From Paracoccaceae bacterium (GTDB lineage Bacteria > Pseudomonadota > Alphaproteobacteria > Rhodobacterales > Rhodobacteraceae), in assembly GCA_017854585.1 (NCBI GenBank), contig JAFMHK010000016.1:1-64000 (forward strand): a stretch of DNA of 64,000 nt, read 5' to 3'. The translations under genes and the position numbers were made by a program. Under the pieces are notes generated by a model that ran no database searches, was not told the DNA's origin, and saw nothing but the letters and a program-made list of their open reading frames with translations. Positions 26,831 through 29,028 of this stretch are shown here, piece by piece (within the stretch, counting starts at the first letter, position 1; each line of letters opens with the position of its first letter).

Positions 26831-27052
26831 TCAAGGCTCGACGAGGTCGGTGTTGCCAGTGAAGGGGTTGTCGTTGGCGTCGATGGTGTTCAGTTCGCCG
26901 GCGATATCGTTCGACAGGCTTTCAACGCCTGCGGACACAACGGCCATGACAGCCAGGCCCAGACCAACGATTGCTGCGGTCAGTACGACCCAGTCAACGG
27001 TGACGGCACCCGATTCGGACACCAGAAATGTTTTGATGGTTGCGAGCGACAT
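26831..27052 (-). CDS. Flp-family pilin 3
   Basis: 73 aa. A short basic leader ends SESG; cleavage after Gly15 would give a mature pilin starting AVTVDWVV. Asp replaces the usual Glu at mature position 5, and Trp replaces Tyr at 6. One membrane helix forms the pilus core. From SESG to the end it matches pilin 1 in all but three residues, so the duplication looks recent. AGGAG precedes the start. Confidence 0.92.
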   Translation of the reverse strand: MSLATIKTFLVSESGAVTVDWVVLTAAIVGLGLAVMAVVSAGVESLSNDIAGELNTIDANDNPFTGNTDLVEP

Positions 27053-27244: not shown

Positions 27245-27439
27245 TCAGAATCCGGTGCGGATATGATCGGTTTCCAATTGCGCGCGGATGTTGGCAGATA
27301 GATTCTGCATCCCATCCCCGATCACATCGGTCATGGCCATCCCCAGACCGACCAAGGCGGCGGTCAGAACAACCCAATCAACAGTTACAGCTCCGCTGTC
27401 GTCATCGCAAAGAAATGCGACGGTTGGCGCAAAATACAT
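27245..27439 (-). CDS. Flp-family pilin 2 (divergent)
   Basis: 64 aa from ATG 27439, with GGGGAG correctly spaced upstream. The leader ends DDDSG, and the core AVTVDWVVLTAA is shared with the other two pilins. After that the sequence differs (TDVIGDGMQNL and a basic end). An acidic leader is unusual because Flp leaders are normally basic. It could be a minor pilin. It lies between pilins 1 and 3. Confidence 0.85.
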   Translation of the reverse strand: MYFAPTVAFLCDDDSGAVTVDWVVLTAALVGLGMAMTDVIGDGMQNLSANIRAQLETDHIRTGF

Positions 27440-27609
27440 GGCGCAACTCCCCAAGGTGAACCGGGGGTGGCAGCCCCGCGGCTAAGCAGACTTGGGCAAT
27501 TTGGCGGCGAAATGTGGCGAAAAGGGGGCAAAGTTACGCAGAAATGATGCATTTTCGACAAATTCTGGAAGCAATCTTTTCTTATTGTTGCCTGATTTCA
27601 AACAAACAC

Positions 27610-27698: not shown

Positions 27699-27917
27699 TC
27701 AGGGCTCGACGAGGTCGGTGTTGCCTGCGAAGGGGCTGGTGTTGGCGTCGATGGTGTTCAGTTCGCCAGCGATGTCGTTCGACAGGCTTTCAACGCCTGC
27801 GGACACAACGGCCATGACGGCCAGGCCAAGGCCAACGATTGCTGCGGTCAGAACGACCCAGTCAACAGTCACGGCGCCGGATTCGGATTTGATGAAGTTC
27901 TGGAAAAGGTTGGTCAT
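27699..27917 (-). CDS. Flp-family pilin 1 (probable major pilin)
   Basis: 72 aa. Leader MTNLFQNFIKSESG with cleavage after Gly14, then AVTVDWVVLTAA and one membrane helix. The mature protein has Asp5-Trp6 instead of Glu5-Tyr6. GGAG lies upstream. It is the first gene of the pilus locus, has a strong terminator downstream, and has a CtrA-type site 130 bases upstream, all as expected for the major, cell-cycle-regulated pilin. Confidence 0.93.
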   Translation of the reverse strand: MTNLFQNFIKSESGAVTVDWVVLTAAIVGLGLAVMAVVSAGVESLSNDIAGELNTIDANTSPFAGNTDLVEP

Positions 27918-28046
27918 CTGTCTTGCTCCAAGGTTTGTAGTTGCTCAGGTTTCTCGTTGTCTCGCCTCAGGGGTTCGTTTGTTTCCCCCTTGGGATGAGC
28001 CTGTTTTGACGGGAGATCAGGGCGGGAATGGGGCGCTCGAAAGGAT

Positions 28047-28061
28047 TTAATAGGGATTTAA
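28047..28061. promoter_or_regulatory. Predicted CtrA binding site
   Basis: TTAA (28047-28050), seven bases, TTAA (28058-28061), then C: an exact match to the CtrA consensus TTAA-N7-TTAAC. It lies between pilin 1 and the divergent lytic transglycosylase. In Caulobacter CtrA activates pilA; regulation here is inferred from the motif and position. Confidence 0.6.
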
Positions 28062-28176
28062 CGGGGTTGTTTCGCGGCCAGCGCACAGGCATGATTCCCT
28101 AAAATAGATGGAATTGGCGAAAAAACCCCTTATTCTATTGGGAAAACGCCACAGAGGCAGGACATCGGTAGACATC

Positions 28177-29028
28177 ATGCTCGGTAAATTCGGCTTGATT
28201 GGATTTTTTACCTTCAATCTTTTCTGGGGGGCGATTGCCGCGGCGCAAACCACGGATCCTGCTTACCCGTCGATCACTTTCCGCCGGGTGACGCCACCCG
28301 GCGCGGATTTCACCGGCCCGCGGATCAACATACAGATCGCCCCGCGCGACAATCCGGCCGTGTTACCGCCGCCTGCCGCGCCCGCCGCCGATAGTACCGC
28401 CCTGCCATCCCGTGCGCCCGGTTCACAAGGTGGTGCGCCAGAGGAGTGGTTTTGGTCGATCGTGCCGCCCGACGGCCCGGGCGGCCCGGCCCGGTTTCGT
28501 GATGCCATGGCGCATTTGCGCAATGCCCCCGAGGCCGAGGGTCTGGATGCGCCCCGGCTGAACAGCTTGAACACCTTGGCGGACCGCCACGGCGCCGAGA
28601 TCTTGTTGGCCACGGTGGGAACGCAGGTTTCGCCTGCATTGGTTCTGGCGGTCATGTCGGCCGAAAGTGCGGGGCGCGCCGATGCGGTCAGCAGCGCGGG
28701 CGCGCAAGGTCTGATGCAGCTGATCCCGGCCACGGCGGAACGGTTCGGGGTCGAGGACAGTTTTGACACCGCCCAGAACATCGCGGGCGGCGTCGCCTAT
28801 CTGGATTGGTTGATGGCCGAATTCGACCGTGATCCGATCATGGTCATCGCGGCCTATAACGCGGGTGAGGGGGCCGTGCGTCGCGCGGGCGGGGTTCCGG
28901 ACTATGCCGAAACCCGGCGCTATGTGCCCAAAGTTCTTGCGGCGTGGGACGTCGCGCGGGGCCTGTGCCTGAGCCCGCCAGAGTTGGTTTCGGATGGCTG
29001 CGTCTTTCGGGCGATGACGCGCGGTTGA
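28177..29028 (+). CDS. Secreted lytic transglycosylase (SLT family)
   Basis: 283 aa from ATG 28177. A signal peptide ends near AAAQ (residue 24). A Pro-rich linker (about 60-100) follows, then an SLT domain (about 130-265) with the catalytic Glu163 in VMSAESAGRADA, followed by GAQGLMQLIPATAERFG and the AAYNAGEGAV motif. It cleaves glycan strands of murein to anhydro-MurNAc ends. It diverges from pilin 1 across a shared 259-base region with the CtrA-type site. Confidence 0.92.
   Translation: MLGKFGLIGFFTFNLFWGAIAAAQTTDPAYPSITFRRVTPPGADFTGPRINIQIAPRDNPAVLPPPAAPAADSTALPSRAPGSQGGAPEEWFWSIVPPDGPGGPARFRDAMAHLRNAPEAEGLDAPRLNSLNTLADRHGAEILLATVGTQVSPALVLAVMSAESAGRADAVSSAGAQGLMQLIPATAERFGVEDSFDTAQNIAGGVAYLDWLMAEFDRDPIMVIAAYNAGEGAVRRAGGVPDYAETRRYVPKVLAAWDVARGLCLSPPELVSDGCVFRAMTRG

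Follow-up and report, generated by a model that had tools for sequence, protein, structure and literature searches.

The window analyzed here, a 64 kb stretch of DNA, carries three Flp-type pilin genes on the minus strand, pilin 1 (72 aa; 27699-27917), pilin 2 (27245-27454) and pilin 3 (26831-27052), of which pilin 1 was assigned by its tad context and by alignment with relatives. RcpC/CpaB, secretin and OmpA-family genes lie downstream of the pilins, and the neighborhood is, by its gene content, a tad locus. The three pilins matched no Pfam family at E ≤ 0.001 and no NCBIfam pilin model at E ≤ 10. They carry a GAVTVDWVVLTAA segment in which the early acidic residue is Asp; aligned over 11 sequences, this GAVTVD-type segment comprises a glycine, a hydrophobic segment and an early acidic residue. 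Divergent from pilin 1 is a lytic transglycosylase gene with an SLT domain (28177-29028, plus strand; PF01464, E 9.7e-26). A homologue stands divergent to the pilins at 51 of 61 loci, the window included, and at 50 of 57 further loci.

The 260-base gap between pilin 1 and the transglycosylase contains a CtrA-type site, TTAA-N7-TTAAC (TTAATAGGGATTTAAC; 28047-28062, plus strand), which an exact pattern search returned as the sole match in the 64 kb window. A sequence-only reading had placed a perfect CtrA-type site at 28047-28061, and the site is indeed present: TTAA-N7-TTAA without the final C occupies these positions on the plus strand, and the full pattern extends to 28062. The distances claimed for it agree with the gene coordinates, as the pilin 1 start (27917, minus strand) lies 130 bases from the site and the transglycosylase start (28177, plus strand) about 115 bases from it, with another in-frame ATG earlier, at 28108. 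No second CtrA-type site was found in the gap at one mismatch or fewer, a threshold at which more degenerate sites, such as the upstream sites of Caulobacter itself, could be missed.

Between this site and pilin 1 lies a conserved pilin core promoter of about 60 bases, delimited by family alignment at 27990-28049 on the minus strand (the profile match itself spans 27990-28036). It starts where the CtrA-type site ends, the pilin-proximal TTAA of that site touching its conserved A-rich upstream edge, and it consists of repeats and a -10-like element. The consensus obtained by iterative profile fitting reads AAatG.aC.a.....GCCcAA.Tcc.GCCccAaTccg.gGGC.atAT...c.CAT.Ccaa, and its columns are periodic at 11 bases (0.147 at lag 11, the runner-up among lags 5-19 reaching 0.053). 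In the window, all on the minus strand, the first conserved repeat of 11-base period is GCCCCATTCC (28025-28034) and the second, 11 bases further, is GCCCTGATCT (28014-28023), the two together forming GCC-N8-GCC. A putative -10-like element (28002-28007; family consensus about TATAT) lies inside GTCAAAACA, and from its spacing the transcription start of pilin 1 is predicted at 27995. With this predicted start as zero, the CtrA-type site would occupy about -67 to -52, centered at about -59.

The core promoter was first seen by aligning 14 of the gaps, and a first profile fit was accepted at 53 of 56 loci. The scanning profile was built without three loci (L053, L062 and L070), and a pilin near the secretin was absent at five (L056, L080, L084, L094 and L098). 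After re-estimation, the profile exceeded 15 bits at 75 of 693,970 positions scanned. All 74 positions above 18 bits precede a pilin start, at a distance of 62-101 bases with the exception of one at 306 (L070). With this profile, trained on these same loci, 54 of the 56 score above 18 bits ahead of a pilin, the exceptions being L052 and L062. Several genomes have a further core promoter before the second, third or fourth pilin; in the window, no core promoter above 18 bits precedes pilin 2 or pilin 3.

A sequence-only profile, R1, was made from 50 loci, with L053, L060, L062, L070, L078 and L102 left out of the alignment. At E ≤ 0.001 it matched 135 places in 104 of 148 family genomes, and for 113 of these places, in 99 genomes, the next 420 bases of DNA encode a GAVTVDW-type pilin segment. 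The core promoter therefore precedes a pilin in 99 of the 148 family genomes. Of the other 22 places, 21 are weak (21-26 bits) and precede other genes, and the remaining one is followed too soon by the end of its contig. Under these strict filters 44 of the 148 genomes have no R1 match, and five more have a weak non-pilin match alone. The match in the window (27.6 bits, E 8.1e-6) is the sole one in its source genome at E ≤ 0.001; it is among the weaker ones, and its distal repeat is degraded.

The association held beyond the training loci. In held-out genera, the first-round profile, applied unchanged, scored above 15 bits at 43 of 57 loci and above 20 bits at 37, the best opposite-strand score being 2.6. 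Three of the 43 have unusual distances (L232, L274 and L278), and three of the 14 loci lacking the element (L234, L235 and L240) are truncated where their contigs stop. Thirteen strong R1 sites (at least 26.6 bits) lie away from the secretin-linked training loci, and 12 of them lead into a pilin: 11 have a pilin frame and one (L193) a pilin segment, while the contig of the thirteenth (L203) ends 61 bases past the site. Outside the family, six genomes had a match among 289 of the class, a set that includes some of the family, and none of these six sites leads into a pilin.

The weak matches form a separate observation: across genera, a small number of gene types repeatedly follow them, a hint at a small shared regulon. 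By labels assigned from reading the sequence, these are a 41-aa membrane peptide (L208, L215), a basic peptide of 45-50 aa (L206, L289), a cpaE-like gene (L223, L224) and a gamma-glutamyltransferase-like gene (L204, L213). Two of the 21 weak sites lead into cpaE-like genes within a tad operon.

Several other accounts of the core were considered and set aside. A sigma-54 promoter was rejected by eye, and the TGA-N8-TGA reported for CenR does not match the core. Reading by GcrA/CcrM is not convincing, with GANTC in 14 of 53 sites against 9.2 in shuffled sequences. Coding on the opposite strand was suggested by a CAT conserved at positions 52-54 (69 of 90 loci); the frames, however, vary widely in length, from 1 to 118 aa. 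A sigma-70 consensus scan over 27900-28200 returned no promoter for pilin 1 or the transglycosylase; a structured leader RNA was not indicated in the window (z -0.8), and Rfam gave no matches. Among the papers listed by literature searches, none describes this conserved promoter in its title or the opening lines of its abstract.

Upstream of the core is a second conserved element, which we take to be IHF-type on the basis of the IHF consensus WATCAANNNNTTR (WATCAA-N4-TTR). The IHF test, the TTAA cluster counts and the masking test below were run on the 90 loci whose core scores more than 20 bits. WATCAA-N4-TTR occurs in 34 of the 90 at one mismatch or fewer, against 1-9 at other spacers, and in 68 at two or fewer, against 14-40; 28 of the starts fall at -48 to -46 relative to the core. 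Read in this way, the element is a predicted IHF site present in many relatives. The pilin promoters share with IHF sites the sequence, the N4 spacing and an upstream AT-rich block, and the IHF-type site has a fixed place at -47 in the family. The candidate window copy, AATCATGCCTGTG (28084-28096, minus strand), stands at this position and differs from WATCAANNNNTTR by two mismatches. The AT-rich block upstream of the core scores low in the window (3.4), compared with more than 8 in 76 of the 90 loci. The source genome has four HU/IHF-family matches; a 238-aa open frame (G000:C35:63557-63724) has a partial HU/IHF-type match.

TTAA clusters were also seen at -60, -37 and -14 from the core, of which -37 and -14 recur in held-out genera and -60 hardly does. 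Held-out TTAAs at -38 to -36 number 8 of 36 against 1.1 expected. A phased CtrA array at these clusters was rejected: the sequences around -37 read TTTCA-N6-TTAA, and these sequences and the spacer test identify the -37 cluster as the TTR end of the IHF-type site. It was therefore dropped as evidence for CtrA, and from the clusters only the N7 excess outside the IHF block was kept. The -60 cluster sits in the AT-rich block adjoining the IHF-type site. The -14 cluster occurs in 12 of the 90 loci (e.g. L066, L092, L109 and L239), often with an A-tract 11 bases on, and neither IHF nor CtrA is a clear explanation for it.

The CtrA-type pattern itself is enriched at one spacing. In the source genome, the distinct places of TTAA-Nk-TTAAC number 0, 1, 1 and 4 for N3 to N6, 8 for N7, 1 each for N8 and N9, and 0, 1, 0 and 2 for N10 to N13. 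The ten other spacings thus average 1.1 places (11 in total) where N7 has 8 (Poisson P about 2e-5), so that the false-discovery rate for the motif is about 14%, a background risk of roughly one in seven for the window site. Over 41 family genomes, N7 gave 626 hits and N9 122, counted on both strands with near-palindromic places counted twice, and N7 exceeded N9 in all 41. By these counts the motif class is in use in the source genome, and the N7 spacing is selected both there and in the family; the window site is likely functional as a motif. Four of the other exact places (L046 5091, L047 5062, L044 5001 and L048 5180) have as neighbors a MshEN-glycosyltransferase, a TPR-glycosyltransferase, Hint-domain proteins and an acyltransferase, the last of these near a chpT-like gene.

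The distribution of the site among relatives differs from that of the core. The secretin was searched in 149 family genomes and matched in 129; upstream regions were compared at 60 loci, then at 57 more, and at the best 80 named loci of a longer list. Among those best 80 matches the nearest by secretin are Roseobacter sp. HKCCD6576-2 and Alterinioella, followed by Roseicyclus, Roseibacterium and Nioella records, and an exact TTAA-N7-TTAA was found in none of the 20 nearest named loci, L127 being too short for a reading. At pilin promoters, exact N7 TTAA pairs occur in 6 of 117 loci against a shuffle mean of 0.88, and 6 was reached in none of 200 shuffling rounds; the loci are related and some are near-duplicates, so these counts are not independent. 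With the IHF block masked in the 90 loci, exact N7 pairs number 3, where 14 other spacers give 1 in all; pairs at one mismatch or fewer number 17, against a mean of 4.6. As judged from these counts, CtrA-type sites at pilin promoters recur, yet come and go between lineages, and the window site seems to be a local addition that is younger than the adjoining promoter.

A site that is not conserved could also be a chance match in an AT-rich promoter, its pilin-proximal TTAA being no more than part of the conserved A-rich block with which the core starts. This block does overlap the half-site, and a TTAA cluster elsewhere in the pilin upstream regions proved to be part of the IHF-type site. A reversed-pattern control in the source genome is also less favorable, with 8 rows against 12 for the CtrA pattern, and in some other, AT-rich genomes it exceeds the CtrA pattern (e.g. 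132 against 5 in G014); we judge this control the weaker one because it counts another tetranucleotide (AATT). Against a chance origin, only 0.42% of dinucleotide shuffles of the 260-base gap (n = 20,000) contain TTAA-N7-TTAA, and whole-window shuffles contained it in 5 of 100 rounds and the TTAAC pattern in none of 100. Together with the genome-wide N7 enrichment, this makes a chance match unlikely in our view.

Candidate regulators are encoded in the source genome. CtrA in the source genome matches the NF045991 equivalog at 423.1 bits (cutoff 350), and a ChpT-like protein was found by PF10090. The gcrA gene that had been noted in the window is there by its PF07750 match, with the NCBIfam GcrA model reaching 160.5 against a cutoff of 280. 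The source genome also encodes a ChvI-like protein, in a neighborhood that reads pckA-chvI-chvG-hprK-rapZ, gene names that we assign presumptively by sequence signatures; a match to a curated ChvI model was not obtained for this protein. A close counterpart, at 66% identity or more, occurs in 54 of 61 family genomes, and the other seven have weaker regulators only.

An 11-base direct repeat suits a reader of the OmpR family, judging from the spacing, and ChvI is an unproven lead within that family. That the core repeats are ChvI boxes and that ChvI drives the pilins is possible but doubtful. ChvI autoregulates its own promoter, and among 30 chvI upstream regions there was no conserved copy of the core; the forward GCC-N8-GCC pattern occurs in 12 of the 30, four times at -143 to -136 and otherwise scattered. 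A block resembling TTAGCCATTCCTT is conserved, in several genera, between chvI and the pckA-like gene next to it (L297, L300, L301, L303 and L306). R1 found no match in four genomes (G001, G004, G015 and G057) that encode both a tad secretin and a ChvI-like protein of 71-78% identity. The seven genomes with no close ChvI-like match have no R1 match either, but most of them also lack a close tad secretin, and the shared absence is therefore no test. What favors ChvI, besides the regulator encoded in a suitable neighborhood, is the spacing of the repeats: the GCC-N8-GCC of the core coincides with the ChvI consensus of S. meliloti, which PMC9731502 quotes as N-GCC-N8-GCC and which likewise has GCC repeats at an 11-base step. 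The pilin core differs from that quoted consensus in being longer, with positions conserved as A, T or C and a -10-like element at a fixed place, and in having no conserved copy before chvI in the family. Caulobacter ChvI has been reported with a different motif, and 11-base steps are found with other OmpR-type regulators too, such as CenR with its TGA-N8-TGA (PMC9275681, as excerpted).

We favor, with moderate confidence, a two-layer promoter for pilin 1, in which an old OmpR-type/IHF core is joined by a young upstream CtrA modulator. The old layer, common to roughly two in three of the searched family genomes, would consist of the 11-base repeats over the -35 region and the -10-like element, with an IHF-type site upstream in many of these genomes. 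A winged-helix response regulator of the OmpR family most likely binds the repeats side by side and recruits RNA polymerase, and IHF would bend the DNA upstream of the core. In the young layer, phosphorylated CtrA most likely binds the perfect site and modulates expression of the pilin, perhaps also of the divergent transglycosylase, which would tie pilus production in the lineage of the window to the CckA-ChpT-CtrA relay as well. The adjoining family-wide promoter is probably the main switch for the pili.

It is improbable that the CtrA-type site serves the divergent transglycosylase and not the pilin. The site does lie between both genes, and its TTAAC end points toward the transglycosylase, but it borders on the pilin core, and about 115 bases separate it from the start of the transglycosylase; the consensus scan, which recognized no promoter for either gene, is a weak test of the matter.

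With regard to the family as a whole, we consider it somewhat more probable than not that the Flp pilins of Rhodobacteraceae, dispersed ones included, have a dedicated and deeply conserved promoter, made up of an IHF site, tandem 11-base repeats read by an OmpR-family regulator other than CtrA and a -10-like element, onto which lineages gain and lose TTAA-N7-TTAA. CtrA is the textbook regulator of Flp pili in Caulobacter, and these results suggest that the conserved part of the control in this large family lies elsewhere, with CtrA as an optional addition. The conserved pilin promoter is a more interesting object than the CtrA-type site: it provides a sequence handle for pilin genes distant from the tad secretin and a bait for its regulator.

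The earlier expectation that pilus production is tied to the CtrA phosphorelay survives for this lineage as plausible, given the motif, the encoded CtrA and ChpT-like protein, the selected N7 spacing and the Dinoroseobacter-type precedent of D. shibae tad, but it does not generalize: the nearest relatives lack the site, tad is not repressed in the P. inhibens mutants, and the core is of a different kind. The parallel drawn with Caulobacter pilA holds insofar as a TTAA-N7-TTAA-type motif precedes an Flp-type pilin gene in both (PMC11264516, in the part available), and, by the predicted start, would not extend to position. In C. crescentus, pilA is described there as driven by a CtrA site overlapping -35, with sites further upstream that reduce and delay expression. 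Four CtrA sites are given for pilA, as against one in the window, which is a perfect consensus and would lie upstream of -35, not on it, next to another type of core promoter. This placement resembles that of the upstream reducing sites, and we therefore do not commit to activation. A Caulobacter-like arrangement, in which CtrA binds over the pilin promoter as its chief direct activator and the core is secondary, would be favored by the perfect consensus, by the pilA precedent and by the CtrA dependence of D. shibae tad (PMC12363192, as excerpted). We regard it as quite unlikely nonetheless, in view of the predicted position at -67 to -52, the single site in the gap at one mismatch or fewer, the conservation of the core and not of the CtrA-type site, and the relay mutants of P. 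inhibens, in which the same excerpt describes no tad repression.

A close published system is the tad pilus of D. shibae, also of the Rhodobacterales, for which PMC6473078, in the part available, gives an in silico CtrA site at the tad gene Dshi_1127 and describes the pilus genes as the group that rose last once autoinducer had been added. According to the available part of PMC12363192, mutants of the CtrA phosphorelay showed repression of a tad cluster in D. shibae exclusively and not in P. inhibens, a comparison in which, as cautioned there, media and methods differed. A CtrA layer that is gained and lost on a constant core would therefore account for a tad cluster that responds to CtrA in D. 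shibae and not in P. inhibens.
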